Shown: positions 1 through 43,662 of the stretch, one piece after another
Position numbering within the stretch: position 1 is the first letter of the stretch
Layout of the letters: every line of letters starts with the position of its first letter
From: Diplonema papillatum
Taxonomy: Eukaryota > Euglenozoa > Diplonemea > Diplonemida > Diplonemidae
DNA length: 64,000 bases
Direction of reading: 5' to 3'
Assembly (NCBI GenBank): GCA_030068145.1
Contig: JAPJBO010000532.1
Span: 1 to 64,000, forward strand
The notes under the pieces: model-generated
What the model saw: the letters and a program-made list of their open reading frames with translations, nothing else
Database searches by the model: none
What the model was told of the DNA's origin: nothing
Made by a program: the position numbers and the translations under genes

Positions 1-3000
1 TTTCTTCGCATGCCAGTGCACACCGCGCACTTCTGCTTCGCGCAGGCATCGCAGACCGACTGCGTGCGGAGCAGAGGGTCCGCCTGCGCAGCCGGTACAA
101 GCACGGGAAGGCGCGGGCGTTGCGGCAGAGGGGTGGGCACGTCCCAGCGCAGCGAACGCTGTGCCCGCCGCGCCGCGTCGTACTGCGGGAACACGTCCCC
201 GCCCCAGTTCTTCCCGTCCCCGGCAGCTGCCCGCGGAAAGCTCGTCCCCAGCACCCCGTGCGTCTCCTCGCCCCCGGCGAAGCGTGGGCGAGGTGTCAAT
301 CCCCCCCACAGCATCGGCGCCCCCAGGGTCCTCATCGAGCCCACCCGGACCTTCCGCTCGGCAGGCAACGGCGACGGCAGCTGCAGGTCCTGGCACAGGC
401 GGCACAATGTCGACAGCATCGTCCAGAGGGTCTTCCCCCTCTGGTTGGCGGCGAGCCTTCGTATTCCCGGGGGGGCAGGGACGTCGACCCCGGTGTGGAC
501 CTCGAAGTCCACTGCCAGCTCAACGCACGACACCTCGCCTGCGTTGGTCCACCTCAGTGCCGACAGCCAGCCCTTGAGCGCCCGCATCGCACGGCCGCCG
601 TACGGCCATCTCGGCGGCTCATCCGGAAGGCGGTCGAAGTCGAACAGGTGTTGCACCGCCGGCAGCGGCGCAGCTGCGTGCCAGGGGTGCATCGGTTGCA
701 CTGCGGAGAGGCGGCGTCGCTCCGCCTCCACGCGTGCAGTGTACACCGCCGCCATGAGGCGGTGAAGGGCCGCGACCTCCACCCGCATTCCTTCGACAAT
801 AACCCCATGCACACGCGTGCAAGACGGCCACCTCGCCCGGTCCGCCCGCAGGAGTTCGGCGAAGCAAGGACGGCCGCGAATCTCGTCGTAGGCGGGGCAC
901 TCCCACCACAGGTGATCCGCTGTGTCCTGGACGCCCAGGTCGCAGTCCCTGCAGCCGCGGTCCAGCGGCGGACGCTGAGGTTCCGAAGAGGAGGATTCGG
1001 AGACGTGCTCGTCAAAGCTGCCGGTCGTATCAGAGGCGGTCGACGACACGGACGCCGAGGAGCTCGGCGACCCGTCTGTCCCGGCCGCCCCTCCGTTCGC
1101 ACGCGCATTCCGTCCCCACCGCGCAGCGAGGAACACACCCCCGGACAGAATCACCGCCAGCGCACGTTTCTCGCCAGCGTCAGCCGTCGCTAGGCGCAGC
1201 TCGTTCGTACGCCTGCAGTCCACCCCTGCCTGCACGCCGTCGTAAGACGGCCGTTGCCTCGCAAGCTGCGTCCAGGTCGTCTGCCGTAGCCGTGCCCGGA
1301 TGGCGTGGTGCCTCTCGCCCCTCTCCATGTCGAGAAGCCGGCGGCCCTCGAGCGCCGCGGTCGCAAAGTCGTGGCCTTCGAAATCGATGCCCGCGACCGT
1401 GAAACCGTCAGAGATGGCGATCCCGACAGGTCCCAGGCGCGCCTTCGGCAACAACACACCGTGCCGGCTGTAAAGCCGGGCGATGTTCAGCATGCGGGCG
1501 TGTACGCGGGGGAGCCTCTCGCACGTGTCGAAAAGCGAGCACAGGATCCTGTACGGCCGAGCCAACAGTGGGTCCATTCGGTGGGCTTTCGCCAGGATGG
1601 CCAGCACCGCCGTCACATTCCTCGACGGATGCTTCGTCCCGAAAGCTCCCTTCACTACCCGCGACCGCAGCCCCCTGAGGCACGTCTGCGTGTACCCCTC
1701 GTACGAGCACCCCGCCAGCACGCTTCCGAGGACATTGGAGCTCGCCACCTCGCAGCGGACATCGAATGGAAGGCGCGAGGTGCTCAGCCTGTCCAGCAAT
1801 GCGTTATGGGCCTTCAGACGCGCGTCGTTGGTACGTTCCGCCTGAACGCTCGCGACACTCGTACGCACACCGAGGATCTTCGCCGCCGTCGCTGTCGGTA
1901 TCGTCTCGTCGCCGACTGCCAGCACGCTCGTATAGGGCCGCCGCCGACGCTGCCGCACCGTGCCCGCGGGGATCCCCATCGCCAGTGTCTTCGTCATGTT
2001 CAGCCGCATCCCTGTCAGGGCGCAGAACTGTGCGATGACGTCGACCGCCTGCTGCAGCTCGGACTCCACGGACGCGAAGAGCGTGGCATCATCCGCCAGC
2101 GACTCCGACGAAACCTCCGGTACGCGCGCCGACACCGCTCGGAGCACTATCGACAGCAAGGCGTTGATGAGGATCACCGAAAGTGGGCACCCCTGCAAGA
2201 TACCGTTGGTGACCTCAAACTCGGAACCCACGCCCAGCGGCAGCTTAAACCGGCGCTTCATCCCACGGTACATGGCGCGCAGGGGGCGCAGGATGCGCGC
2301 GTCGAGGCCCATCCCTTCGGCAAGCCGGAGAACGATCCCCTGCGGTACCCGGTCGAAGCACTTCGCGAAATCGAGTGCGACCATGTACAGCGACTTCGAC
2401 TCGTCGAGCAGCGTCTCCTCGATCAGCGTCGTCAGCTCCATGAGGACGTCGTCCGTCCGATGCCCTCTGCGGAAGCCGTGCTGCGACGGAAGAATCCAGC
2501 CGTCCTGCCACTCCATGACGTCTTGCAAACGCCTGCAGGCCCATAACCGATAGACGCAGCTCGTCACGGTGATTGGCCGCAAGTTGGTCGGCGAGGTGTC
2601 GTCGGTCTTTGGTATGAGCGACACCAACGACGTCAGCATACCCTTCGGCCACTCCCCTCGCTCCTCCACCAGATTGAAAAGCGTCGCGAACCCGTCCAGC
2701 AGCTCGTCGGGCAGGGCCTTCAGTTCGTCCAAACGCCAGCCGTCCACCCCACACGCCGTAGTCTTCTTCTTCCGCTTGTTGAGAACATCCCGTAGCTCCC
2801 TCCCGGTCACATCCCGCAGGTCCATCTGGCGGCGGGGAATAAAACCCTCGAAGGCCCTGCGGAACGCCTCGTACTCGGGCTCTGGGCGTCCTTCCCCGTA
2901 CATGCGCAGGATCGGGTCCCACGCCTCCTGCAGCACCTCGTCCATCTCCTCGACGTTGGCGGTGAGTCTCCCGTCCGCTGTCCGCACCGCATCGGCCGCC

Positions 3001-4740
3001 TGCCCCGGACCCCCCCGCAGCATCGACACAAGCGCCCGGCGATCCGTCCCAAACATCGTCAGCTGCCTCTCCTGTTGCTGCCTCTTCCGTACCCTCGCCG
3101 CAGCCGCGTTGAATCTCGCACTGCGCAGTCGTACGTCGTGCAAGTAAACGCGAGCGACCTCTGCGCTCGGCGGGTCGGAGGGGGGCGGCTCGCCGACCCC
3201 GCCGCCACGGATCACGGCGAGACAGCGCAGCCAGCACAAGCGGAGTTCTTGGGGCACCTGGAATGGTCCGGACGCTTCTAGGCGAGCTCGCTGGTAGACG
3301 TAGTGCTCCAGACGCCGGATCGCATTCCCGTGCCTCAGCTCCGTCTCGCACGCCACGCCCCGGTCCGGCGTACTCCTCGCCGCAACGCGAGTCATCTTCA
3401 GCTCCGAGTTACCGCGGCCGGTGTGCGCACGTCTCTCACAGGCAGGCATCCCGCTGCGGTCTAGCAGGTACTGCTCGCACAGAGCGGAGAGCGCCATCCA
3501 CGCCCCTTCGACGTCCCCCTCGCGGGCGGCGGCGCACACGGCATCCAGCCTCGGGACCTCGACGACCCTACCTGCCGGCTTCACGGGTATCGCTCGCGGC
3601 ACGTTGAACCTCCATGTCTGCTGTTCGAACGCCTGCACCGCGAGTCGAATCCGGACGCAGCGGTGGCCCCTCACGCTCCCTACCCCGATCGTCTCGCATG
3701 CAACAAAGGCGGACGCGGCCGCGCGGTTCATCAGGGCGTAGTCGATGCGCGTGCCGGACGTGTTCGTGCCCGTGTAGGTGTTGGGCGGTCGTCCTCCCTC
3801 GCACGCCGCCTGCAGCTGCGCTGCGTCCGTCCACCCGTTGCTGAGGGCATGCCGAAGCGCCGGCGACCGCTCAACGTCCGTGTTGAAGTCGCCCATCACG
3901 ACCGCCGGGGCCTGCCCCACCATGGCCTGCGCCTCGAAGAGGACCGTCTGCAGGAGCCGCTCCCGGGACGCCGCTGCCGTGTTCCCCGATGGGGCGTAGA
4001 CGGCAAAGAAGTGTACGAACATCCGTCCGACCCCCGTCGCGATCATCGTGTGGATGACCCGGTTGCGCACTTCCTGCAGCGATTCGTTGGGCAGCAGGTG
4101 GGCCACCCCCGGCTGCCTGGCAAGCACAACGACTCCTCCCCCCTTCTGCCCGGAATGCGGGTTTCCGTGCGGACAGTGCTTGCTGCGCTTCGGCGGTTGC
4201 GGCGGCCCCCACAGCGTCTTCCACCTCGACCCGTCGACGGCGCACGGTCTCGCGAGATAGTCCGTCGCCTGCGTCTGCTGCAACTCGCCCATCGACGTCT
4301 CCAGCACCGCAATCGCGTCTGCGGGCGCCATCGCCCGCACCTCGTCAATGTGCAGGGCCAGCGAGCCAACATTGACTGCAGCAAGAGTGAGATCGCGCGG
4401 GGGACCAGGGTTCGGGTGGACGTCCCCGCACCTCAAGAGCCGTTCCCCCGCGGCGTACGCATACTCACGGGCGTCGTGCTTCGACGGTAGCCACGCACAT
4501 TCAACACGCTCACGCCGCAAGGCAACCCGGGAACCCACGCCCCGCGCGCGGTGCTGCATACGCGCGGTAACGTACCGGGCTGCGCCGGCCGGTCGACGGC
4601 GACGTCCGCGGCGGAAAGCCGCCGCGGCGGTCGAGGCGAGCGCTCGGCGCCCGGGGCCAGGGTTGGGATGCACATCCCCACATCGCATCAAGCGGGCTCC
4701 CGCAGCATCGCCGTCCGCGCGGGCGTCGTGGCTTGACGGC
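1..4740 (-). CDS. LINE-A ORF2: 2A-like motifs, APE endonuclease, reverse transcriptase, zinc finger (3' end off window)
   Basis: This frame opens directly after the ORF1 stop and stays open to the left edge (about 1,580 codons). In order it shows two 2A-like motifs (4653-4682 and 4401-4430); an APE endonuclease with MGDFNTD near 3870-3899, later GTRIDYALMN and a GHR motif; an RT palm with DFAKCFD, NGILQGCPLS and the catalytic box LADD (2088-2099) where most relatives have YADD or FADD; and a late zinc finger of form CRDC-x(8)-H-x(4)-C at about 904-957. The last visible residues are Cys-rich (CDACAKQKCAVC), matching the Cys-rich tail of LINE-B. No RNase H was recognised. Translation may start by readthrough of the upstream TGA, by reinitiation, or at the ATG at 4686-4688 inside the first 2A. 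The endonuclease nicks target DNA and the RT primes cDNA from the nick. Domain identity is secure; the start is not. Confidence 0.88.
4401..4430 (-). other. 2A-like peptide motif, copy 2 (CGDVHPNPGP)
   Basis: This is a second copy in the same frame, 252 bp (84 codons) downstream of copy 1, just before the endonuclease domain. The preceding residues align with those before copy 1: LPSKHDAR and AAGERLLR here, LPSSHDAR and AAGARLMR there. The pair is therefore an old tandem duplication. Confidence 0.75.
4653..4682 (-). other. 2A-like peptide motif, copy 1 (CGDVHPNPGP)
   Basis: The minus strand encodes CGDVHPNPGP 21 codons after the ORF1 stop and in the same frame. The D-V/I-x-x-N-P-G-P core is that of ribosome-skipping 2A peptides, with H in place of the usual E. 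Skipping would separate the final Gly and Pro (about 4655/4656). It would matter only if ribosomes read through the TGA at 4743-4745. Confidence 0.7.
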
Positions 4741-4742
4741 AG

Positions 4743-6179
4743 TCAGGCGCGCGAGCACGTGACACACACGCTGGCGCCGCACTCTTCGCACCTCCTCTGC
4801 ATGCGGCCCTTCTGGATCGTCTTCTGACAATCGCCGCATTTAAACTCCGCTGGAGCCCGCACCCCATCGGACAGCTCGTGCCGGTGACCGGCCTTCTCAC
4901 CCTCGACCGGCTCCTTCAGACGCTGGCGCGGGGGGGACAGCATCTCGACCACACCGGCCACAGCTCGCTGGATTAGCGACTGTCCCGCTTCCGCCGGCTG
5001 TGTCACCTCCTCGTGCTTCCGCTTGTTGGACGGAGCCGGCTCCGGATCCGTATGAACTTCGGCGGCGGGCAGCTTCATGCGCCGTCTCTGGCCGGGCGTC
5101 GTCGGGAGGGAGGAGGCGAGGCGCTTAGAACGCGGCCGCGGCATCTCGCCCTTGTCGTAGTCGTTGACGACAATGAAGGGCGACCCTTCCCTTTCGATGA
5201 CGCGGAACGGCGGGCCGCCATCCCCCGTCACCACGCACGTCCGCGATCCGCTTCTCACGAAGGATGTCGTGACCGTCGCAGCCCAGCCTGCGAGCCTGAG
5301 CAGCATCTCGACGTCGGCCTCGTGTTCTCGCGCCCTGGCACCGGACACGAGGTACCGCAGTTTCGTTTCGAGCGGGGGCGCCGCGTGCTCACCAGCAGCC
5401 GCCCGCACGCGCGCCAGCATCCCCGACCCGCGCGCCCGCAGCAGAAGACGCCTTCCACCAAGAACGACACCGCCCCCGGCCTCGCCGCACTTCTTCAACA
5501 ACGCCAACGCGGTCTCCCGCGTCACGTCCGCATTTAATGCGACGACCGGCGTGGCGTCGCGCGCTTCCTTCCCGACTGGTCGCCAGAAGCAGCCATCCCT
5601 ACCCGACCCCTGCAGGATGGCGTCCACGTGTCCCGCAGGTACGCGAACCAGGAGCTCTCGGCGGCCCTGCTGCGACGTCACGCCCCACATGGAGGCCGCT
5701 TCGAGGCGCGTCTGCGCCGAAGTCGCCTTCACCGCCCGGCGGCAGAGCCGCGTCATCGCCGCGTGCGGGTCCTTCTCCACGCATGCCCACGTCTCTGCCG
5801 TCGCGTGCTTGCGTGCCACGGTGAGGACGAGCACCGCCGTGGCAGCGCCGGGCTTCTGTTCGCCGTCTGTCGCCGCCTGCCGGACCTTCCCTACCTTCCC
5901 AGCCTGCCGAACGTCCCCGTGCGTCCACAGGTGCATCCGCTGCACCACGCCTGTTTCCATGAGGACGTGGCGCGCCTCGCTCTTCTCGAACGGCTGTCGG
6001 CACAACACCGCGTACCGAACCTCCTCTGTCGCCAGCGCCGCAGCATCGACCGCCACGCCCATCGCCGTCTCGGCCTCATCGACGCTGGGTGCGACCCAGA
6101 GCCCCTCCTTCTTCGCCTCGAATGAGCACGACTCGAGGATCGGCACGTTCCAGTCGGAACTGTGCACGCAACTTTTCAC
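4743..6179 (-). CDS. LINE-A ORF1: putative nucleic-acid-binding protein with C-terminal zinc finger
   Basis: This is an open frame of 478 codons ending in TGA directly before the ORF2 frame. The first 310 or so residues match no family I can name. A basic, Pro/Ser-rich stretch follows with NLS-like clusters (RPRSKR, GQRRRMK, NKRKHEE). The C-terminus is a zinc-binding module with CGDC, then CEEC, then CVTC, a Cys pattern like FYVE, B-box or PHD-type treble clefs. ORF1 proteins of LINEs usually bind element RNA; that role is inferred here. The frame opens at a GTG with a stop (6186-6188) just upstream, inside a dispersed repeat. The first in-frame ATGs lie about 40 and 74 codons in, so the N-terminus is probably truncated. 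The stop TGA is followed by CTG, a leaky-type context. Confidence 0.75.
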   Translation of the reverse strand: MKSCVHSSDWNVPILESCSFEAKKEGLWVAPSVDEAETAMGVAVDAAALATEEVRYAVLCRQPFEKSEARHVLMETGVVQRMHLWTHGDVRQAGKVGKVRQAATDGEQKPGAATAVLVLTVARKHATAETWACVEKDPHAAMTRLCRRAVKATSAQTRLEAASMWGVTSQQGRRELLVRVPAGHVDAILQGSGRDGCFWRPVGKEARDATPVVALNADVTRETALALLKKCGEAGGGVVLGGRRLLLRARGSGMLARVRAAAGEHAAPPLETKLRYLVSGARAREHEADVEMLLRLAGWAATVTTSFVRSGSRTCVVTGDGGPPFRVIEREGSPFIVVNDYDKGEMPRPRSKRLASSLPTTPGQRRRMKLPAAEVHTDPEPAPSNKRKHEEVTQPAEAGQSLIQRAVAGVVEMLSPPRQRLKEPVEGEKAGHRHELSDGVRAPAEFKCGDCQKTIQKGRMQRRCEECGASVCVTCSRA

Positions 6180-9420: not shown

Positions 9421-10260
9421 GCTCTTAAAAGGTGGTGGGTAGATGAGAGGAAGCGGGGTTGCACCATGCCATGAAAAGGGTACGCCGGGACTAAGCCAAT
9501 TCACCTACCCTCCCCTGTAAGCGCTGCAAATCGCTCGTCAGCTGAATATTGGGGCGAAAGACCCACGAACCATCTAGTTGCTGGTGGTTCACTCCGAAGT
9601 TTCCCTCAGGATAGCTAGAACCAAAACAGGAGTTACGCCAGGTAAAGCGAATGATTGGAGGCATTGGGAAATCGCTTCCTCGACCTCTTCTCGAACTTTA
9701 AATGGGCGTGAGCTTGGGGTTACTTCATCAACGAAGCGGCGGCGGAAGGATTCGACATCATCGAAGATAGAGACGTACATTCCGAGGCGGGAAAAGCGAC
9801 GAAGAGAGGTGGCACGAAACGACCGCCGAGACCGACGAGCCAGAACGCCGGCGATGCAGATTCCTCGCCGCAGATATTCGGGCGGGAAGTGAATTGGCGT
9901 CATTGACTCAAGTTGCATGGTGGCCCACTTTACCGGGTACCGGCGTACCCAAGCTGGCGCTCGGAGGGCAGGGAGAAACTCGCGCCAAGACCTGTGTTCT
10001 GTGAACGGAGGCGCCGGCCCCAGCTTTTTGGGAGCGAGACGGGGAGCGAGACGGCGAAAAAGGGGAACGTGAGATACGACGGAATGCCAACGCAAATGGC
10101 AGGGACATAATCAGTGCAAGCTGATGACTTGCGTCTACTAGGCATTCCTCATTCAAGGAGAATATTTGCAATCTTCGATCCTCATCACGACGCAAGTTCA
10201 AAAGATTTCCCATCCTCTTCAAGATAGGTAGCCGGAAGGCTCTCAAACTCGTTTAATGCG
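9421..10260. other. Possible but unproven coding stretch
   Basis: Overlapping frames are open on both strands at 9578-9892 (+, Arg-rich) and 9589-10095 (-). The minus frame has a plausible helical end (VREEVEEAISQCLQSF) but no family I know. The run CGGCGATGCAGATTCCTCGC recurs with changes near 41690, which argues for repeat DNA. No function assigned. Confidence 0.2.
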
Positions 10261-11629
10261 TCAGTGTAGTGCGCGTGCAGCCTAGGACATTTAGGAGCAT
10301 CACAGACCTGCTATTGGCTCGCTCTTCCGCGCGCTATAAGTCGCGCGCAGTCCCACCAGCACCACCACGAGGAGTGCATACGCACTGCTATCCTCTATAC
10401 GTAGTATGTGGTACGGTGCACGCAGCAGCAACACACTGTGACGGACTATATAGCATCAAAGCGGTCGATGCTGTTGGAACTTGATACGCAGCAACAACTG
10501 GTAGTAGCAACATGTGTCGTTCTAGTCCGGGAACAAGCCAGGGAGAAGAGCGGAGCAATCTTTACAAACAAATGAGTGACTCTAGGTAGCTGGTTGAGCA
10601 ACCGGTACTCAGAAAAAAAGAAAACGATCTTCGTTTGGTTGCAGAAGCGGGTCCGTTTCTTCTAGAGAACCGTAAGGCACCGATTCAGGTGTTCATGGCT
10701 GGCTTCGTGATACCAAAGTATCCCAAAGACAGCCCACGCGTGAATTCACTGGCGCGAGCCTCGATTGAGCGCAGAAGGGTGCAGATGTTGGTTGTGGCAA
10801 CGACTGTTCAATGAAGAACGTCAGGCGCCGGAGCGGGGGGTTTCACGGAGCACTAGTCATGTGAAGAACAGCGTAATGACCAGCCGTATTACTACTGAAA
10901 AGTGCTTCCTACTGATTTGATGTGATTGGTCATATTGCTACTGAAGAGTGCTTACTACTTGCAGTAGCCATTCTTGCTGGTGGTCAAATATTCTTAGTGA
11001 TCGTTAGATAAGACTGTTTCTTATTACTAGTGACTACTGCATTTTGTGAAGGAATCCCTTTACAAGGCGTACTTTTTCTTCCCACAAAAGTGGACGCATT
11101 CACTAGTAAGTGACTAGTAAGAATGCAGTCATTCTTACTACTGACAGTAGTCATATGACTAGTAAGATTTTCGACTAGTAAGATCAGCAGTAAGTGACTA
11201 GTAAATGGCATTGACAAGTGCACCGTGTTCCTTGGGTCGGGGTGGGTCCTGAGGCAAAGGTGTAGTGGAAAGTGGACCCTTAAAAGGGGCTGGAAGGGGA
11301 AGGCTGGACTGCACCCCCTTGCCGACGGGGAGGGAAATTCGTATTTAGTGTTCGGGCCAATGTTGTCCGTGGGGGGGTCATGAGACTTTTTCTTCGCCTT
11401 CAAAATGAACAGGAAAAGGGTTAAGGGATCTGGAAAGACTTGCGCCTCTCGTGCAAATCTTTGATGCTGAGAAGGCGGGTGTGTGGGGCTGGGAAAACGG
11501 GGAGGTGCGACCTGCCGCGCCAAACGGGATGATTCGCAACGGAAACGTCTGCGTCAGAGCCAGGCCTGGCGGGCAGATCTTTCAACCCATTCAGCAGCCT
11601 TGGTCGGCACGGTTCGAGTGGAGGTGCTG
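10261..11629. repeat. Non-coding; short ACTAGTAAG repeats
   Basis: From about 10880 to 11215 the motif GACTAGTAAG and its relatives (TTACTACTGA, GTAGTCAT) recur at least six times in both orientations, giving many small palindromes. No gene was recognised across the interval. Confidence 0.5.
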
Positions 11630-13113: not shown

Positions 13114-13208
13114 GTTAAGCATTGAGTTCTTTTAAGTACATGAACCACATGGATTAGCATGCACTGTGTGTTTGTTAAGCAGCGGCTGCCAAAACTAGCC
13201 GTGACACC
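13114..13208 (+). repeat. Family D remnant with the 52-bp module
   Basis: It carries GTTAAGCATTGAGTTCTTTT and the rest of the 52-bp module, then GTTAAGCAGCGGCTGCC and a decayed end CCGTGACACC. The left arm of family D is missing. Confidence 0.55.
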
Positions 13209-13344
13209 TATTTGATGCAAGGTAAAGGAGAAAGTTGGAAGTAATTGGGAGGTTGCTATTGTTGGGACCCTCGCAGCTCGCTGGGTCAGGCGCGCCAGGT
13301 ACGTGCTGGGCTAAAGAAAGTTGAAGTATGGCTAAAGATAAAGT

Positions 13345-13620
13345 GGTGTCACCTCAGGGGGTAATCTCAGGGCCGCCGACGTGATAAGCCGTTGAGCAGC
13401 GGCTGCCGGCTTATCCCGTGACACCTTTTATATGTACGTTATTGAAAGAGTAGCGTTGGCACTCTTACAGGTTCGTTACCTCGTAGCTCGCCGGGAACGG
13501 GCACTCCAGTGAAACTGGGTATGATACCGTTTCAGGTTTGGATTTTGGGAGCATTGCCTCATGTGAATTCTGAGACCAATTTCTCCCACGAATGGTGAAC
13601 CAGCTTTGGTGACCGCTGTT
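13345..13620 (+). repeat. Family D, 'empty' copy: inverted-repeat core plus downstream arm
   Basis: The 81-bp core runs from GGTGTCACC to GTGACACC (13345-13425). It can form an outer 8-bp stem and an inner 9-bp stem (GATAAGCCG with CGGCTTATC). The inner loop lacks the 52-bp module, so this is the unfilled form. Downstream, 13426-13610 matches 32608-32805 beside LINE-B, including AAACTGGGTATGATACCGTT. Confidence 0.7.
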
Positions 13621-13734
13621 CCGCAGTGGATGGGTGCTGTCTCTAAAAACAGTGCACTGCGCGTTGTCGTCCAAATAAAAAAGTACGTGCGCTCGGCTAA
13701 AGACCGGCGCGGGGCGAGACTGGAGGTAGCAGTT

Positions 13735-25950: not shown

Positions 25951-26102
25951 TGTGGGCCTTTGAAGCGTGGATGATGCCTCTCGCGCTGCTCCCCTTGAGG
26001 TTCCTGGCTCATGCCAAAGCGCCGCCGCCCGGGTTTAGGGAAATAAAATACCTTCTCGGCCTTTTGGCTAAGATCAAGTGTAGTATCTGTTCTTATCAGC
26101 TT
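25951..26102 (+). mobile_element. Retroposed chimera: repeat 'X' fused to the 5' end of U2 snRNA
   Basis: The insert is flanked by perfect 19-bp direct repeats AATTTGTTGCATTAGTGTG (25932-25950 and 26103-26121). Its left two thirds match, inverted, 8634-8712. After GGGAAATAAAATAC the sequence becomes U2 snRNA. The long TSD indicates LINE-mediated retroposition. Confidence 0.75.
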
Positions 26103-26105
26103 AAT
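26052..26105 (+). ncRNA. U2 snRNA 5' fragment (pseudogene)
   Basis: The run from CTTCTCGGCCTTTTGGCTAA through GATCAAGTGTAGTATCTGTT to CTTATCAGCTTAAT agrees with the strongly conserved first 60 or so bases of U2, including the GTAGTA branch-site-pairing region. It lacks the first four U2 bases and stops before the ATCTGATA and Sm-site regions. It is therefore not a functional snRNA gene, but it shows that the organism has a conventional U2 spliceosome. Confidence 0.88.
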
Positions 26106-26235
26106 TTGTTGCATTAGTGTGATTGTCAGGCCTTCGACTACCCTGAGCAACGCACTATGCACACTCCGGTACTACACTGCAGTACGCGTACTCTTTCACT
26201 CTTTTCCTCTCTTTGGCTAGCCAAAAAAGACTCCT

Positions 26236-26640: not shown

Positions 26641-26766
26641 AAAGTTGAAGTATGGCTAAAGATAAAGTGGTGTCACCTGAGGGGGTAATCTCAGGGCCGC
26701 CCACGTGATAAGCCGTTAAGCATTGAGTTCTTTTAAGTACATGAACCACGTGGATTAACATGCACT
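26641..26766 (+). repeat. Left flank of LINE-B: family D left arm and 52-bp direct repeat
   Basis: GGTGTCACC (26669-26677) through GATAAGCC is the left half of family D. The 52-bp module (26715-26766) ends exactly where LINE-B begins and matches 32520-32571 with two differences. Confidence 0.8.
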
Positions 26767-26781
26767 GCCTTGAAAGTCAGG

Positions 26782-29700
26782 TTATCGGATGACGTCGTCA
26801 CCTGCCATTGCGTCGTCAAGGTCGAGCATTTGTGGAGCTAGCGGGGTTTGGCTTTCTTGCGATTCCAGAGACTGAGTCGGCGAGTACGAGGGCGGGCACG
26901 TGTGTCCGTTTTTCACTTTCGAGGGCGTTGGTGTGCCCGTGGTCCCCGGTCGTTTCTGAGAGCTGCTTGCCCTCGGTACCTTCTTCTTCCTTCGATGCAC
27001 CCCTGAGTCGGGGGTGGTCGCCTTCGTCTTCTTCCGCTTGCGGCCGGCGATCGGGCCTTCCTTCGGGGTGCCTAGCACCCTTTTCTTCAGCGCTGGTCGT
27101 TCGCTGGTTCCTGGCGTTGGTGGCGGCCTCTTGGTCGCCCGTCCGGTCGTCGCCGTCTCCTTTTTCGTTGCCGCGGGCGGCGCTTGCGCCGCTCGCTTTC
27201 CAACTGGCGTTCCCCGTTGTACGCCCACCTGGGTGGGTGAGGAGGGCCTCTTCTTCTTGTTGCGTCCGGGGGTTGACGGGACGTTCGGTTCGTTGGACTG
27301 GTGGTGGCCGCGGCGGCAACATGCCGCCGGTCGCCTCTGCGTCAGCGTAGGGAGCCTCTTGCACTCTTGGCAGGTTCCTCTGCCATGCGTGCGGCAGGCA
27401 TGATGCCCGCTGCGGCAACACGCCGCCGCCGTCTTGCACTCGCCGCACTTCGTCGTGCTGTGCTCTGTGCACACCGCGATCGGCTGCCCATCGTTCGCGT
27501 GGTGATGGTGCCGGCAGCACATCTCTACCGTGGGAACGTCCCTTCGGACGAGTGCTCTGCACGCCTCACACTTCCCTTTGTGATGGGTCGCGCACGTGAC
27601 GAGTGCCTTCTCTATATCGACACCCGGCATATGCACGGGGTCTGGGTGCAGTTGTGGTGGGGCAGGCAGGGCCCACCTCGCCGCTCTCCCGATCGTCCAG
27701 TCAGGGTACGCCGGGCACTGCGTCCCTACATCGCTTCCTTTCACTTGTTCCTCAAGTATCGTCCCCGTGTGTGCCTCGCGAAAGCGTGGCCTGGGCCGTA
27801 CACCCGATATCCCCGAGATGCCCATGAACGACAGCGACGTCGTCGGGCACACCCTCTCCCCTCTCATGCAGCTTCCCAGCCCTTGCTGTGCCGCCAGCTT
27901 GTCCAACGCGCTCATCATGCAGCGCAGGACGTTTCCCCGTTCTCTCACCCCCTTCGGCGCATTCCCGTGCAGCGGCATGCTGAGGCCCGAGAAGAGTTCA
28001 AAGTCGATCGCAAGCTCTAGCATTGACGCCTGCCCGCTCTCGGTCCACTGCATGTCAGACAGCCACGCTACCAACGCATAAAACGTCGGTAGTCCCCAGG
28101 TCTTGTTTCGCTCCCACGTCCATGCCGGGGCAATCCGCGCAAAGGGGTGGTCAAATTTCTCGGCAGGCATCGCATCCGCTCTCGACCAGGGGGTCGTGGG
28201 GTTCCTGGCTACCCAGCCACGTGCTTCGAGCCCTGCACGTTCCGTAAGGATTTCAGCCATCATCTCCTGGAGCCGCCTCGATAAGTGGGCGTTCCCCGGT
28301 ACAACCACACCATGTTCCAGCGTGCATCGGGGCCACTCGGTTCGGTTGGCCGCCATCAGCCCGGCGTGTGCTTCCCGCCGGCGAATGTGTGAGTATGCGT
28401 CGCAGTCCCAGTAGATATGCTGTTCGTTCTCCGTCACGCCGCTCCCACAGTGCTTGCAGCTGGGCGCCTGCGGCTCAGCTCCAGCCTGCCTCATCCGCGA
28501 CGTGAACTCCGCCGTGTTCACACCCCCCGCAATCGCAACTCGAATTAGCTTCGCCGTGTGCGCGGAACATTCCCTCGTCTTCCAGAACGCATTCGTGCGC
28601 TCCAAGTCGGCTCTTTCCAGCCCCTGATATCCTGGCCTTCTCGCCATCAGTCGGGCCCACGTCCTCGTTCTCAGGTCCGCCCTCACTTCGTGCCCCCTCT
28701 TCGAGGGCGACGAGGCCAGCGGGTCGAACACTGCACCATTCCGTCGTAGCGTGCGAGATAGGGGCCCAGGCTCCCATATGTGTCCACACTCCTCCATGCT
28801 CCTCATCGCCAGCCCGACTGGGCCGAGGGGTTGGTCCCCCTCGGCGTACCGCCCCCGGATACTCTCCATCAGAGGTAGCAGTCGCGGCAGCCTCTCGCAC
28901 GCCGCGTAGAACGCCGTCGTCACCCGGTACGCTAAACACGTACCGGGGTCCGTCAGGTGGCCCTTCTCCTGGAAGTTCAGGACCATTTCTCTCGCGCGCT
29001 TCGGGTTTGCTCCACCCCAGATCAGACCCATCACCGACGTCGTCAACCGCTTCATCGCCACCTTTGACACCGGCGCGAAGGAGCAGCCCGATAGCGCTGC
29101 CGGCAACACATTCGACTGCACAATACGGACCCGCTTTTCGTACCGGAATGGCGCGTGGCGGAGGCCCTCCGCTAGGGCCGCCGCCCTCTCTACCCTCTTA
29201 GAGTCGGACCTCTCCTTTCTGTTCTTCGCCGTTGAGACTAGGGCCCCCAGACACGTGACGGACTTGCTAAATCGCAGCAGCGCATTTCCGCTTCGGAGTC
29301 TGAGCGTCGACTGGTGCCTCTGCCTCGTCGAGAATGCGATGGTCTTCTCGAGGTTTAGCTGCATTCCGGTGAGTGTGCAGAACTCGTCAACAATGTCGAC
29401 TCCCTTTTGCAGTGCGGCCTCCGACAGCCTGGACAGTAGTGTGGCATCATCCGCGTACGACTTAGGACTCACACCCTCAGCTTCTTTTTTGACCGCTTTC
29501 ATCACTACCGACAGCAGGGCATTGATGAGTATGACGGACACAGGGCACCCTTGAAGGATACCGTTGGTCACACTAAACTCCCTGCCCACCCCTAGCGGCA
29601 ACTTGAAGCGTCTTGCGAGCAGACTGTAAATCGCCCTCAGCGGCTTGAGAACCCGACCGTGCAGTCCTAAGTCCTCAGCCAGGCGTAGCACTACCTCTCG

Positions 29701-32505
29701 CGGGACCATGTCGAAACACTTCCGGAAGTCCAGCGCCACTCCGTAGAGCGGCTCTCCGTCCAGCAAGGCGTCCTCCACCTCGAGCCCTATCTCCATCAAG
29801 ACGTCCTCGATCCGGTGGCCCGGCCGAAAGCCTTTCTGTCCTTCTTCGATCCACCCCTCCTGCCACAGGACAATGTCCGCAAGCCTGCGGCAGGCCCACA
29901 AGCGGTACACGGCGGACGTGACGGTTATCGGCCTCGTGTGCAGCGGGTCTTGGCTCTCATCTTTCGGCACCATCGACACCAGCGCAGTTGTCATGCTTGC
30001 CGGCCAGTCCCCAGTCGCTTCGACCAGGTTCATGACGTCTGCAAGTGCATTCAGCAGGGGGAGCGGCAACTCCCGCAGTTCAGCCATGCGCCAGCCATCC
30101 ACCCCTGACGCGCTTTTCTTCGGCTTCTTCCTCAGCAGAATTCGCAGCTCCTCCCCCGTGATTGTTCCGGCTTCCATCAAGTGTGGGCCGATGTGATCCT
30201 GGAACCGATCCCGAAACGGCTCGTACTCCGGCTCTGGCCCGTCCTTGTACTTACGCAGGATAGGGTCCCACGCAGTGTTCAGCGCCTCGTCCATCTCGTC
30301 AACATTTGCAGTCACTCCCGCCCCCGTTCGCAACACCCCCGACGGCTCAGCGCGTCCGGCGCAGATGGTTGTCAGACATCGTCTGCTCGCATCGGCCCTC
30401 TCGTTCAGCTTGTCTCGGTACTTCGTAAACCTGGCCGCCGATCCTTCCCTTCCGAGCCTACTCGTCTCTTCCCGCAATGCCGTGAGAAGCTGCTTCGCCT
30501 CCTCATGATCCGGGAATCCTTCTGTCCCTTGGCCACCTTTCATGCACGCCTGTGCCAGCCGTCTGCTGTTCTGCCAGCAACGGGATACTTCATGCGGAAC
30601 TGCCTCCGGCCCGCGTCGCTGCGCAAGGTAGCTGCAGATGCGTTCCATCCTGTGGATGGCCTTCCGGAGCCGTAGCTGTCTGCTGTTCGCCGCCCCCGAC
30701 CCGTCGCTCGCAGTGCTTGCCGTGATACAGACTCTCTTAGGCGACGTCTTTATCCCCCGGCCGGTACTCCTTCCCCTTTCTTCCGCAGGGATTCCGAAGG
30801 CATCCTGCAAGTACTGCTCACTGACTCGTGACCACTCGAGCCAGGCCTCTTCCACTCGCTGTGCTGCCAGCCGTTCTGCGAAATCGGAGTTGGTCAGTCT
30901 CTGTACGGCTTCCCTGTTAGCTTCTGTGTCCGAGAGGCCCCACTTGGGTCCCCCCTCGGTAGGGATTTCCCGCGGTACTTTAAATCGCCACACGATTTGG
31001 CGCAGCGCCGCAATGTCCAGGGTCATTGTCACGAGCCGGTGTCCCGGTACGTTCACCGCGGTGGTGACGCATTGACGGAAAGCTCCCGTCGTTATTCGGT
31101 TGAGGAGTATGCGGTCGATCCTCGTGCCTGTCGTCCGGGCGCTGGTAAAGGTCGGTGGTGGCGGTGTGTCACCGGTACGCGCATGGTGCAGTTCCGCTGC
31201 GTCGGACCATCCGTTCCTTAGTGCCTTCCGCAGCACAGGGGACCGGTCTTCTTCCGTGTTCAGGTCACCCATCACCATTATGGGGACGTCACCGAGGCTA
31301 TCTGCCGCTGCGAAGAGGATCTTCTCCAGCATGTCCTCACGCTCCTCGCTCTCCGCCCTCCCGTTTCCGGAAGGGCAGTAGACATTGAACACGTGCACGA
31401 ACGTGTTGCCGGCCCCTGTTGCTACTACCGTATGGCTCACTCGGTCCGGGGACCGTATTGCTGCGTGCGAGAGCGCCGTCATCGTATCGTACGCAGGTAT
31501 CGGTCTCAGTACTAGAGTGGAGAGCCCCCCGTTCGCGGCGTTCACCGTCGAGCGACTACCGGAGTTTCTACAGAGTCTTCCGGGAGGCGGCAGGCCCCAG
31601 TGGCAGCACCATTTCCGCAGGTATTCCTCCGCCTGCGCCCGTTTGCACGGAAGGAGTGTCACCTCCTGGCAGCAGAGAAGATCCGCTTCCACCGCGTCGG
31701 CCGCTGGGAGATATTGAAGTAAGCTAGTTACGTTCAACGTCGCGAACTTCATCTCCGTGCGGCCGGGGCCCGGGTTCTGTTCGATGTCTCCAGCGCTTAA
31801 CAGCTGCTGTCTAGTAGTTTCCTTAATAGATATAAGAGTTCTTTGGCGATTACACAAGTCAGTACGTGGCGCGGGGCTGAACTGTTGCTGGGGGGGTGGG
31901 GAGGACGCCTGAGGGCGGGGCGGGGGGGGCATGGGGGGAGTTTCTTGCGGGGTGTCCCGGCCTTGCAAACGTTGGGAGGCGGCCTCGCGCACGGCCCTGT
32001 AGGTGAGCGAGACCCGGTCGCGTGCGACATCATCGGGACGAATCCCGTGTGTCCACAGGCTCCTGGCCTCGCCTTCCATGTGGCACAGTGTGCCGACCGG
32101 CAGGGGGGTTCTCACTCTCCGGCTCCCCCTCTCCCACTCCATGACCGTGTCGCTCAAGAGCGATACGGTCGCTACCCTCGGACCCAGTTCTCTCTGGTCT
32201 TTGTGGGGGTTGATCCCCACTCCCCTCCGGTACCAGTTGGCCAGCAACTGGTCCGGTTCCCACCCGAGACGGTCACGTATGAGATCCGCCGCTTCTTTCA
32301 GGGGCCCCTCGGGAATACCCCGTTCCAGTCTGACCGGGGGTCCGCCCTGTCGGTAGGCGTGTCCCCACTGCTGGGTCTCTCTGCTTTGTTCTCCCCCCAG
32401 CCTCCTCCAAGTGGCTTTCGGCCCAAGCTCGGGTACTCGGCTCAGTCTGTCCAGAAGATCCCGAGGGATCGTCTGGAAGCTTAGTCCGGGGATTGCTCCC
32501 TCCAC
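26782..32505 (-). CDS. LINE-B polyprotein: AlkB-like dioxygenase, 2A, APE endonuclease, reverse transcriptase, Cys/His-rich tail
   Basis: 1907 codons without a stop. Residues 85-172: AlkB-like 2-oxoglutarate/Fe(II) oxygenase with NWY (90-92), HKD (101-103), H153, R164 and R170 in the spacing of AlkB enzymes. Residues 185-215: Pro/Gln-rich linker. Residues 237-248: 2A motif SAGDIEQNPGPG. Residues 252-500: APE endonuclease (MKFATLNVTSL, VMGDLNTEED, GTRIDRILLN, GHR). Residues about 780-1080: RT, with DFRKCFD, NGILQGCPVS and catalytic YADD (1017-1020; 29446-29457). Near 28400-28465: CKHC-x(9)-H-x(4)-C zinc finger. Residues about 1630-1735: Cys/His-rich tail, then a basic Ser/Thr/Pro end. If the 2A works, the AlkB part (about 247 residues) is released from the EN-RT enzyme. 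The frame begins at GTG; no ATG precedes the AlkB core, so initiation is unusual or upstream. The AlkB role, likely demethylating element RNA or target DNA, is inferred. Confidence 0.92.
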   Translation of the reverse strand: MEGAIPGLSFQTIPRDLLDRLSRVPELGPKATWRRLGGEQSRETQQWGHAYRQGGPPVRLERGIPEGPLKEAADLIRDRLGWEPDQLLANWYRRGVGINPHKDQRELGPRVATVSLLSDTVMEWERGSRRVRTPLPVGTLCHMEGEARSLWTHGIRPDDVARDRVSLTYRAVREAASQRLQGRDTPQETPPMPPPPRPQASSPPPQQQFSPAPRTDLCNRQRTLISIKETTRQQLLSAGDIEQNPGPGRTEMKFATLNVTSLLQYLPAADAVEADLLCCQEVTLLPCKRAQAEEYLRKWCCHWGLPPPGRLCRNSGSRSTVNAANGGLSTLVLRPIPAYDTMTALSHAAIRSPDRVSHTVVATGAGNTFVHVFNVYCPSGNGRAESEEREDMLEKILFAAADSLGDVPIMVMGDLNTEEDRSPVLRKALRNGWSDAAELHHARTGDTPPPPTFTSARTTGTRIDRILLNRITTGAFRQCVTTAVNVPGHRLVTMTLDIAALRQIVWRFKVPREIPTEGGPKWGLSDTEANREAVQRLTNSDFAERLAAQRVEEAWLEWSRVSEQYLQDAFGIPAEERGRSTGRGIKTSPKRVCITASTASDGSGAANSRQLRLRKAIHRMERICSYLAQRRGPEAVPHEVSRCWQNSRRLAQACMKGGQGTEGFPDHEEAKQLLTALREETSRLGREGSAARFTKYRDKLNERADASRRCLTTICAGRAEPSGVLRTGAGVTANVDEMDEALNTAWDPILRKYKDGPEPEYEPFRDRFQDHIGPHLMEAGTITGEELRILLRKKPKKSASGVDGWRMAELRELPLPLLNALADVMNLVEATGDWPASMTTALVSMVPKDESQDPLHTRPITVTSAVYRLWACRRLADIVLWQEGWIEEGQKGFRPGHRIEDVLMEIGLEVEDALLDGEPLYGVALDFRKCFDMVPREVVLRLAEDLGLHGRVLKPLRAIYSLLARRFKLPLGVGREFSVTNGILQGCPVSVILINALLSVVMKAVKKEAEGVSPKSYADDATLLSRLSEAALQKGVDIVDEFCTLTGMQLNLEKTIAFSTRQRHQSTLRLRSGNALLRFSKSVTCLGALVSTAKNRKERSDSKRVERAAALAEGLRHAPFRYEKRVRIVQSNVLPAALSGCSFAPVSKVAMKRLTTSVMGLIWGGANPKRAREMVLNFQEKGHLTDPGTCLAYRVTTAFYAACERLPRLLPLMESIRGRYAEGDQPLGPVGLAMRSMEECGHIWEPGPLSRTLRRNGAVFDPLASSPSKRGHEVRADLRTRTWARLMARRPGYQGLERADLERTNAFWKTRECSAHTAKLIRVAIAGGVNTAEFTSRMRQAGAEPQAPSCKHCGSGVTENEQHIYWDCDAYSHIRRREAHAGLMAANRTEWPRCTLEHGVVVPGNAHLSRRLQEMMAEILTERAGLEARGWVARNPTTPWSRADAMPAEKFDHPFARIAPAWTWERNKTWGLPTFYALVAWLSDMQWTESGQASMLELAIDFELFSGLSMPLHGNAPKGVRERGNVLRCMMSALDKLAAQQGLGSCMRGERVCPTTSLSFMGISGISGVRPRPRFREAHTGTILEEQVKGSDVGTQCPAYPDWTIGRAARWALPAPPQLHPDPVHMPGVDIEKALVTCATHHKGKCEACRALVRRDVPTVEMCCRHHHHANDGQPIAVCTEHSTTKCGECKTAAACCRSGHHACRTHGRGTCQECKRLPTLTQRRPAACCRRGHHQSNEPNVPSTPGRNKKKRPSSPTQVGVQRGTPVGKRAAQAPPAATKKETATTGRATKRPPPTPGTSERPALKKRVLGTPKEGPIAGRKRKKTKATTPDSGVHRRKKKVPRASSSQKRPGTTGTPTPSKVKNGHTCPPSYSPTQSLESQESQTPLAPQMLDLDDAMAGDDVIR
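27305..27610 (-). other. Cys/His-rich tail domain of LINE-B
   Basis: A motif such as THHKGKCEAC, TEHSTTKCGEC or RTHGRGTCQEC occurs three times, alternating with CCRHHHH, CCRSGHH and CCRRGHH. It looks like a set of small zinc-binding knuckles repeated by duplication. The end of LINE-A ORF2 (CDACAKQKCAVC) is a likely relative. I know no named family for it. Confidence 0.7.
31762..31797 (-). other. 2A ribosome-skipping motif of LINE-B (GDIEQNPGP)
   Basis: GDIEQNPGP fits the canonical D-(V/I)-E-x-N-P-G-P core exactly and is preceded by a hydrophobic/Ser stretch (QQLLSA). It lies between the Pro-rich linker and the endonuclease start (MKFATLNV), where separation would free both domains. Confidence 0.88.
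31990..32253 (-). other. AlkB-like 2OG-Fe(II) oxygenase domain of LINE-B
   Basis: The residues expected for catalysis are all present: the 2-oxoglutarate-contacting N-x-Y, the iron ligands H-x-D and a distal H in WTHGI, and two Arg in DRVSLTYR. The ordering (NxY, HxD, strand, MxGxARxxWxH, RxSxTxR) matches the AlkB fold as I know it. No stop or frameshift. Confidence 0.85.
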
Positions 32506-32519
32506 CCTGACAGGGCCCC

Positions 32520-32805
32520 GTTAAGCATTGAGTTCTTTTAAGTACATGAACCACATGGATTAGCATGCACTCGTTAAGCAGCGGCTGCCGGCTTATCCCG
32601 TGACACCTTTTATATGTACGTTATAGAAAGAGTAGCGTTGGCACTCTTACAGGTTCGTTCCCTCGTAGCTCGGAGGGAACGGGCACTCCAGTGAAACTGG
32701 GTATGATACCGTTTCAGGTTTGGATTGGATGGGAGCATTGCCTCATGTGAATTCTGAGACCTATTTCTCCCACGAATGGTGAACCAGCTTTGGTGGCCAC
32801 TGTTG
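32520..32805 (+). repeat. Right flank of LINE-B: 52-bp direct repeat and family D right arm
   Basis: The 52-bp module (32520-32571) is followed by CGTTAAGCAGCGGCTGCC, CGGCTTATC and GTGACACC (32600-32607), then the downstream arm shared with 13426-13610. Joined to 26641-26766 without LINE-B, it reconstructs a copy like 14643-14786. Confidence 0.8.
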
Positions 32806-34280: not shown

Positions 34281-35264
34281 GTAAGTGTCTGTCGATGATT
34301 GTCTGATGAACGTACATAGAGAACGGCTGCCGGAGAAGTCCGACGACTGACTAACGGAGGCAAGGTATCTACGGTTGGTATCTACGGTTGTTCGATCGGG
34401 CAGTGCCGTGATGCTACCACTGGATGGATTATGGCTGAACGCCTCTAAGCGCAAAGAGAGGAAAAGAGTGAAAGAGTACGCGTACTGTAGTGAGTAGAGA
34501 AGAGTTACTACTTAGAGTACGAGTGTAAAAGAACGGACTTTCGTTCTTCCAGACGCAAGCAAAGCGACTGTCGGTCCGAACGGACGTAGGAGGCGGGGGG
34601 TTTGGGGGGGCGGACTATCACGTGCCGAGGAGAGGATGGCGTACCGAACTTGTGTTCAGTACTGCACGTTGCTGGTCAGAGTGGGGTGAAAACTCGCTGG
34701 GTGTGACGTTCTTTTCTTACGGTGTCGCTGATTCCGCCAATTCTCGCCCCACGAAAAAAGCAGGGTGTCTGGTGGAGATATTCGAAAAGACGTTTTCCCG
34801 CGCTCACTGCGACGATGAGCCTCCGCAGATCGCGGGGGGTGATGTTTCATCACCACCCCAGTGATGCGTCGACTGCATCCGTGCACACCCCCCTTCTTCT
34901 GTTTCCAGAATGTAAAAATGGGAAATTCTCAGATCTGGCGACTGAAGGCAGCAAGAGGTGGCCCAAAGAACGGCGGCAATGGAAAGATCGAGCTCAAAAC
35001 AGCCTATTCCCTACATCAGAATCATTTTTCCCTGACCTGAGGGTCACCTACTAGGGCCGTCCTAGAGGCGACATCAAAATGGTCGCGTCTTAGATTTTCA
35101 CTGATATGCGTATGCAAATGACTAAGGCGTTGCCACGCGGGTGTGTAAACCGTACCGTTCCTATACGAAGTTTCTGAGGTCCTATGAACATGCAATGTGA
35201 ATAGCCTCTATTCGAGCCAACCCGGCTTTTCTAAGTTGCGAAAAGTGTATTTTTTTTGGACTAG

Positions 35265-41739: not shown

Positions 41740-41990
41740 CGTTCCCGGCGAGCTACGAGGGAACGAACCTGTAAGAGTGCCAACGCTACTCTTTCAATAA
41801 CGTACATATAAAAGGTGTCACGGGATAAGCCGGTAGCCGCTGCGCAGCGGCGACACAGTGCATGCTAATCCGTGTGGTTCATGTACTTAAAAGAACTCAA
41901 TGCTCAACGGCTTATCACGTGGGCGGCCCTGAGATTACCCCCTCAGGTGACACCACTTTATCTTTAGCCATACTTCAACACTCTTGTCAA
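41740..41990 (-). repeat. Family D copy with 52-bp module, inverted
   Basis: Bounded by GGTGTCAC (41814-41821) and GTGACACC (41947-41954). It carries the inverted module (GTGCATGCTAATCCGTGTGG). The flanks continue as in the 13.4-kb and 32.6-kb copies. 42000-42940 shows no recognised gene. Confidence 0.65.
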
Positions 41991-42944: not shown

Positions 42945-43190
42945 TTTAGAGTGCAAGTTCGCTTAGGGAACCGGGGTTTTATAGTCTCCGGGTGACCGAA
43001 GTCATGAAGGTTCCTTTAAGGTATTGTATGTTTGTGTGTATATCTTTGCTGCCTGTTGCCGACTATTCGACTTACTGTAGCGCGCGCTCTTTTTTCCTAT
43101 GTGCTTTGCCAAGTCCATGGCTCTTGTGACCGACACCGAGTTCACGTTCGCAAGGAAAGCGATCTCGGGCCCCCCACGTGCGTACATGTT
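42945..43190 (+). repeat. Family F, good copy
   Basis: AGAGTGCAAGTTCGCTTAGG, CTCCGGGTGACC, GTATGTTTGTGTGTATATC and TTGTGACCGACACCGAGTTC. It ends at GTACATG immediately before a copy of the LINE-B target module. Confidence 0.6.
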
Positions 43191-43239
43191 TAGCATTGAG
43201 TTCTTTTAAGTACATGAACTACACGGATCAACATGCACT

Positions 43240-43361
43240 GCCTTGAAAGTCAGGTTATCGGATGACGTCGTCACCTGCCATTGCGTCGTCAAGGTCGAGC
43301 ATTTGTGGAGCTAGCGGGGTTTGGCTTTCTTGCGATTCCAAAGACTGAGTCGGCGAGTACG
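43240..43361 (-). mobile_element. LINE-B 3' fragment (122 bp)
   Basis: Nearly identical to 26767-26888, the last about 36 codons and 3' end of LINE-B. On both sides lies the target phrase TTTAGCATTGAGTTCTTT (43188-43205 and 43365-43382). This is a second, strongly 5'-truncated insertion at the same kind of site. Confidence 0.85.
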
Positions 43362-43662
43362 TATGTTTAGCATTGAGTTCTTTAAGGTGCAAGTGCCATC
43401 AAGGCAGGCGAGCACTGTTTAGCAGTGTGAGCTTGAAATGCATGTTTAGCAGGGGTTGCCATGTAGCCCGTATCGGTCTAGTGTCCTTTTTGACTGCAAC
43501 CGTGTATCCGCGGCTGTAAGCTAGCGGTATGCCCCTCACCTGACGGAATTGTTTGCTTGTTGTTTCCGTATCTCCGAGGCTTGGCTGATTTTTGTTGTTG
43601 TGTGTACTTGGTGTTTGGGGGGGGTTTCTCTCTCTCTTTTTTTTTCGTTCCTGCGTCAACCG

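Follow-up and report, generated by a model that had tools for sequence, protein, structure and literature searches.

We have found that an APE-type LINE in the genome of Diplonema papillatum, a marine protist (Euglenozoa, Diplonemea), contains a predicted AlkB dioxygenase domain that resembles ALKBH8 and lies upstream of a 2A site, in one frame with the endonuclease (EN) and reverse transcriptase (RT) of the LINE. The element lies on the minus strand of a 64,000-nucleotide stretch (contig JAPJBO010000532.1, positions 1 to 64,000, assembly GCA_030068145.1), which is called the window below and to which all coordinates refer. Profile, fold and element boundaries all support its identity as LINE plus AlkB plus 2A, and we have very little doubt that the joint AlkB-2A-EN-RT structure is real.

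As to its role, we propose that the 2A site would cause the ribosome to set AlkB free as an enzyme made alongside EN-RT, and that this enzyme would act on the RNA of the element itself, within or close to the RNP. There it would oxidatively remove N-methyl marks or lesions, i.e., m1A, m3C or m6A, which might keep the template readable by the RT or hide the element RNA from RNA surveillance. A selected function of the AlkB is likely in our judgement, while on element RNA as its substrate we are about evenly divided. If functional, such a LINE would come equipped with a nucleic-acid dioxygenase of its own.

One open frame from AlkB to reverse transcriptase

Translation gives a single open frame of 1907 codons (26782..32505, minus strand), with GTG as the first codon and the first in-frame ATG at codon 122. 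Across the element the frame is free of stops for 1911 codons, whereas first-order Markov shuffling of the element (300 replicates) gave stop-free runs of 486 codons at most. Pfam finds only AlkB, EN and RT domains in this ORF. The APE-type endonuclease occupies residues 257–470 (31096..31737, minus strand; Exo_endo_phos, 35.3 bits, cut-off 24.5), and the reverse transcriptase with its YADD box residues 855–1059 (29329..29943, minus strand; RVT_1, 68.2 bits, cut-off 29.6). That is, the endonuclease lies N-terminal to the reverse transcriptase, in the order of APE-type LINEs, and human L1 ORF2p is the best solved-protein match of the RT part by sequence (1.7e-19). Further down, a zinc-knuckle-like CxxC...H...C motif is seen at residues 1350–1368 (28402..28458, minus strand), and its C1350, C1353, H1363 and C1368 hardly vary when 14 sequences, the LINE itself among them, are aligned. 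At an E-value of 1, Pfam gave no RNase H match in the ORF. The GC3 of the AlkB part (0.72) is comparable with that of EN-RT (0.69–0.75); the codon-usage correlation between the two parts is 0.71 in frame and 0.65 and 0.32 in the other frames, which is too weak to count. Overall, the first-pass annotation, which had read one 1907-codon frame with AlkB, 2A, APE endonuclease and YADD reverse transcriptase, is borne out on the minus strand, with Pfam matches above the cut-offs for AlkB, endonuclease and reverse transcriptase.

The AlkB-type 2OG-Fe(II) dioxygenase covers residues ~5–172 (31990..32493, minus strand), as judged from Pfam, an AlphaFold model searched with Foldseek, and a profile match to ALKBH8 (88 bits). 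The Pfam match itself (2OG-FeII_Oxy_2, residues 74–170) scores 46.5 bits against a cut-off of 31.2. The motifs that had been noticed by eye are at their places and in AlkB order, i.e., NWY at 90–92, HKD at 101–103, WTH at 151–153, and R164 and R170; all seven iron and 2-oxoglutarate residues that were checked (N90, Y92, H101, D103, H153, R164 and R170) are kept. The profile and fold checks proposed together with that reading have come out in its favour too, with matches in both Pfam and PDB profiles and with a model that matches AlkB structures in Foldseek, though the mean pLDDT of the model is only 62.6 and the TM-scores by query length are 0.40–0.51. The domain thus shows the HxD...H iron site, the C-terminal arginines, the NxY, the profile and the fold of the AlkB family.

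Among AlkB subfamilies, ALKBH8 stands out. It is the best solved-protein match of the N-terminal part and the first among AlkBs in a single-sequence search (1.1e-5), and in the profile search against solved AlkBs its 88 bits lead the next family by 36 bits (Ofd2, 52; C. elegans NMAD-1, 43; ALKBH5, 26.1 at best). The domain is therefore not closest to ALKBH5, the type seen in an orchid Gypsy element (26.1 vs 88 bits). ALKBH8 acts on tRNA wobble uridines and has a methyltransferase domain as well. Its solved construct comprises RRM and AlkB domains, and tRNA hypermodification is named in the PDB title as the reaction that ALKBH8 catalyses. Neither an RRM nor a methyltransferase domain was found by Pfam beside AlkB in the LINE ORF, and since AlkB, EN and RT are the only Pfam domains there, we do not file the LINE AlkB as an ALKBH8 orthologue.

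As the nearest AlkB is linked to tRNA hypermodification, the substrate could be quite different from the one that we propose. The enzyme might work on host RNA, e.g., tRNA wobble uridines or defence-gene mRNA, rather than on element RNA; the clear lead of ALKBH8 points this way, and release at the 2A site would let the enzyme diffuse. On the other hand, the ORF is without the RRM of the solved construct, and a subfamily resemblance at ~30% identity does not fix the substrate. We regard an action on host RNA as distinctly unlikely. An action on DNA, with 6mA or alkylation damage being removed from target DNA or cDNA as the element inserts, is more improbable still. The profile does match NMAD-1, which is named a DNA N6-methyl adenine demethylase, but at a score far under that of ALKBH8; moreover, neither 6mA nor m6A nor N6-methyl is mentioned in the main text of the D. 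papillatum genome paper, so that the DNA reading, like m6A on the element RNA, is without a known mark in the host.

The AlkB domain is joined in frame, through a proline-rich linker, to the 2A/StopGo core GDIEQNPGP at residues 239–247 (31765..31791, minus strand; upstream context TRQQLLSA), where the translation confirms the motif reported after AlkB at first sight. Its DIEQNPGP fits the published core (D/G/C/N)(V/I)ExNPGP (PMC12846837).

The in-frame ATGs within the first 300 codons are at 122, 143, 192 and 252. The AlkB domain, starting around residue 5, has none ahead of it in this copy, so the copy may be 5'-truncated, or translation may start in another way. We consider that the copy is probably truncated near the AlkB start, and that full-length copies probably carry further upstream sequence with a start codon and perhaps an ORF1. 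The full-length order may then be ORF1, AlkB, 2A and EN-RT, with the 5' part missing here. For a 5'-end ribozyme, the Rfam search to an E-value of 5 gave no match except one of 14.9 bits, under the family gathering score of 39; the first 120 nt of the element do fold better than their shuffled versions (z −2.74, 2 of 200 as good), which proves nothing on a ribozyme.

Boundaries and copy number of the mobile unit

The repeat search in the window shows that both ends of the ORF carry a 54-bp repeat (96% identical). A plain 54-bp target duplication was considered and rejected: comparison with the other copies in the window divides the repeat into a 10-bp target, CCGTTAAGCA, and a 44-bp LINE tail. 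The mobile unit therefore runs from 32517 down to 26723 (26723..32517, minus strand), with AlkB inside at its 5' end. Its 3' tail is at 26723..26766 (minus strand), and direct repeats of CCGTTAAGCA, the target site duplication, stand on both sides at 26713..26722 (3' side) and 32518..32527 (5' side). The 44-bp tail next to the latter (32528..32571, minus strand) is a separate one, which by comparison of the tail copies belongs to a very short earlier insertion into the same target. The ends given in the first-pass annotation, 26767 and 32519, do fall at the edges of the 54-bp repeat, but 26723 and 32517 are the better boundaries.

In total, six copies of the tail are present in the window, starting at 13122, 14697, 26723, 32528 and 43196 (plus) and at 41857 (minus), and GTTDAGCA directly precedes every one of them. 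At 43196, a shortened form of the same LINE 3' end follows the tail. In four copies (13122, 14697, 32528 and 41857) the tail stands alone and a second target copy follows soon after, degenerate in the case of 41857. In addition, the foldback repeat at 13314–13624 has the target without a tail, i.e., an empty target. The target core GTTDAGCAGSGGYTGCC occurs six times when up to two mismatches are allowed, while 20 mononucleotide shuffles contain it 0.15 times on average. As is expected of an APE-type LINE, we thus find both a target site duplication and sister insertions truncated at the 5' end, the latter being the tail-only copies. Given the recurrent target and these tail-only copies, we take the element, on the sequence of this one window, to be a site-specific LINE with target duplications of ~8–10 bp, frequent 5' truncation and insertion upon insertion.

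Several other features were observed in the window. At 43050–43480, LINE insertions are stacked at one target, consisting of a LINE 3' fragment, a diverged related tail and a short further stretch; the members are set off by GTTTAGCA, and the stack ends with the target remainder GGGGTTGCC. An inverted repeat (26170–26215 and 34452–34496, 96–98% identical) flanks the LINE together with its host repeat. Beside the LINE, 26048–26146 resembles U2 snRNA (67.6 bits, 99 bases aligned to a 192-position model), and a single copy of the 27-base head of this sequence is present in the window. Fragments of LSU and SSU rRNA lie on opposite strands at 9600–9755 and 10151–10265; passages of the D. papillatum genome paper describe ~3600 scattered 28S pieces.

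A candidate for a second copy came from the protein search. P0001 (DIPPA_14024) is 98% identical to the LINE AlkB in the search table, with 125 consecutive identical residues, but it had to be rejected as a further copy, as it is the GenBank gene model of the same locus. Its host exons are 100% identical to the window at 55.8–54.9 and 53.4–50.3 kb outside a repeat stretch (from 55788 down to 50341); a GTAAGT donor follows these exons, and the LINE is then entered at CCGACAG|GGC. The model as a whole spans 55788–50026 and 32346–31951, i.e., a host gene spliced ~18 kb into the LINE AlkB, and its host part has a weak TRP channel match below the Pfam cut-off. The last residues of the model would be explained by a small intron within the linker, with a TGA at that place. 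The splice should be either an exonised transposon or a prediction artefact. Since DIPPA_14024 annotates the same DNA, the AlkB-LINE joint is seen once. The exact match of this D. papillatum gene model outside repeats also assigns the window to that species.

This gene model also bears on whether AlkB and the LINE are one element at all, because a model that splices into the LINE AlkB makes the annotation of the region chimeric. Nevertheless, an artefact of assembly or annotation is hardly credible in view of the continuous 1911-codon frame and of the target duplications that flank the whole AlkB-EN-RT unit on either side. Actually, as the 10-bp duplication brackets AlkB together with EN-RT, a joint made by misassembly is unlikely.

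Relatives of the element and other AlkB-bearing sequences

A search with residues 245–1250 returned 43 EN-RT proteins, and most of the close EN-RT relatives, like the AlkB matches, are D. papillatum proteins. The clusters at least 91% identical to the LINE EN-RT (P0004–P0007, P0009, P0010 and P0012) comprise 276 sequences, which suggests to us a large and recent family. The first-pass annotation had proposed looking for other EN-RT proteins with the same AlkB fusion; no such fusion occurs among the gene models of the 43 relatives: in an unfiltered comparison of residues 1–200 with 46 proteins, only P0001–P0003 were matched. This zero is weaker than it appears, because most gene models start further down. 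Alignment from the EN start was obtained for 11 of the 43 relatives, and six of these (P0018, P0020, P0023, P0024, P0042 and P0043) have at least 80 residues ahead of the 2A position, so AlkB is truly absent from those six.

A 2A-type motif stands before EN in seven of the 11 relatives, with the strict core in three (P0008, P0019 and P0020) and only DVHPNPGP, whose H for E places it outside the published core, in four. The remaining four are without such a motif, and two of them (P0031 and P0032) begin at or after its position. The sequence ahead of 2A varies from relative to relative. LINE-B, at 1–6179 and running off the window, has an ORF1 of 478 codons, a stop, two GDVHPNPGP motifs (84 residues apart as counted on P0018) and EN-RT; its ORF1 was considered as a 'gag', but no Pfam match is above the cut-off and we keep the term ORF1. 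Compared with the AlkB-LINE, P0004–P0041 and LINE-B thus have a related EN-RT (34–100% identity by the search table) and, in several cases, a 2A-type motif before EN, but no AlkB in their gene models, and LINE-B has an ORF1 and two DVHPNPGP instead. In the distant relative P0042, an N-terminal OTU protease domain is followed by a stretch that resembles an endonuclease but scores just under the Pfam cut-off, and then by RT and an RNase H-like domain; here, a different enzyme is carried as cargo at the corresponding end of a LINE-like protein.

The RT of P0007 is 99.6% identical to that of the LINE over 783 residues, with an ORF1-like segment upstream (47–49% identical to the LINE-B ORF1) and no AlkB. 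As its segments run in another order, P0007 is evidently elsewhere in the genome. Its residues 112–225 correspond to 27229–26888, the C-terminal coding stretch of the LINE, in another frame (96.5% identical); the other-frame stretch, the ORF1-like segment and RT follow one another as if two LINE copies were head to tail.

These comparisons raise the question whether AlkB is a chance passenger, taken up in one lineage through template switching or 5' capture, perhaps from the other AlkB element (see below), and without selected function. The AlkB-LINE copy is seen once, AlkB occurs in none of the 43 relatives' models although six have room for it, no ATG precedes it, and the nearly identical RT of P0007 sits downstream of an ORF1-like segment instead. 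However, the frame, the active site and the AlkB fold are intact, and the AlkB-2A joint is in frame through the proline-rich linker. The second AlkB described below is only 71% identical, i.e., the LINE AlkB is not a fresh copy of that donor. Overall, we consider a passenger unlikely, though it is the first rival to a selected function.

That second AlkB is found in the Diplonema gene models of P0002 (8 member sequences; 71% identical over 197 residues), and a further one in P0003 (1 member sequence; 64% over 140 residues). Both keep the catalytic residues of the LINE AlkB, while outside the AlkB domain they share little with the LINE. An OTU match in P0002 is weak (21.0 bits, cut-off 23.3), and the end of P0002 reads by eye like the start of a reverse transcriptase, with no Pfam match; an APE endonuclease was not found in it by Pfam. 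A tyrosine recombinase had been suspected by eye in P0003, but is unsupported by Pfam, by PDB sequence search and by a structure model (mean pLDDT 40). Apparently, P0002 and P0003 share AlkB with the LINE but represent a different retroelement. The 71%-identical AlkB with the same catalytic residues means that the domain is preserved in form in both of these contexts, and we infer that it may have been exchanged between mobile elements with its active site kept.

Taken together, ten AlkB gene-model sequences in three clusters (1, 8 and 1 members) seem either to belong to mobile elements or to be spliced into them. In passages of the D. papillatum genome paper, a dozen AlkB homologs are taken to indicate dynamic gene regulation, and the ten should overlap with these. 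A broader reading would be that the 2A site of diplonemid retroelements is a docking point for exchanged accessory proteins (ORF1-like, AlkB, perhaps others), that AlkB moved between two unrelated retroelement classes, and that genes in the genome paper are really transposon genes; as a whole, this is rather doubtful.

Comparison with known systems

AlkB strips m1A and m3C from RNA and has been used to aid tRNA sequencing (PMC7968990, in part), which makes a template-cleaning role reasonable for the LINE enzyme. Erasure of m6A, which the orchid AlkB described below performs in vitro, is the other candidate role. Against it, host ALKBH5 is reported to suppress L1 retrotransposition (PMC7873242, in part), so erasure of this mark can also harm a LINE.

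Like the element described here, plant RNA viruses and giant viruses are selfish elements with their own AlkB. The AlkB alignment matched 11 viral loci with AlkB, and none of the 43 EN-RT proteins matches any of them; fold matches of the LINE AlkB in the viral library have 13–30% identity among the matches listed. In the viral contigs, no relatives of the LINE, of the 14-row LINE alignment or of P0002 were found. To our knowledge, viral AlkBs are without a reverse transcriptase or 2A beside them.

L1Tc has an RNase H, which Pfam does not find in the AlkB-LINE, and we know of no AlkB in L1Tc or other 2A-bearing APE-type LINEs. L1Tc and other APE-type LINEs are like the AlkB-LINE in having 2A in frame with APE endonuclease and RT (Heras 2006 and Odon 2013, as cited in a passage of PMC4981915). 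An AlkB in a LINE, at the 2A site, was not found in our searches of open-licence PMC papers.

The closest case is a Ty3/Gypsy element of Phalaenopsis orchids (PMC9289625), of which the available sections describe an ALKBH5-like ORF. It is likewise a retrotransposon with an AlkB-family dioxygenase whose iron and 2-oxoglutarate residues are intact, so the general idea of an AlkB-bearing retrotransposon is not new; PMC11963269 and PMC12786077 cite this work, with no LINE in the sections available. The orchid element is an LTR element; its AlkB is encoded by a separate ORF2, falls within the Arabidopsis ALKBH5 homologs and demethylates m6A in vitro. In contrast, the Diplonema element is a LINE with an ALKBH8-like AlkB upstream of 2A in the EN-RT frame, known from sequence. 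As the AlkB subfamily differs between the two, the uptake was probably independent. If functional, the Diplonema case would support the argument that retroelements have repeatedly needed to undo nucleic-acid methylation, and would offer a cultured host for tests.
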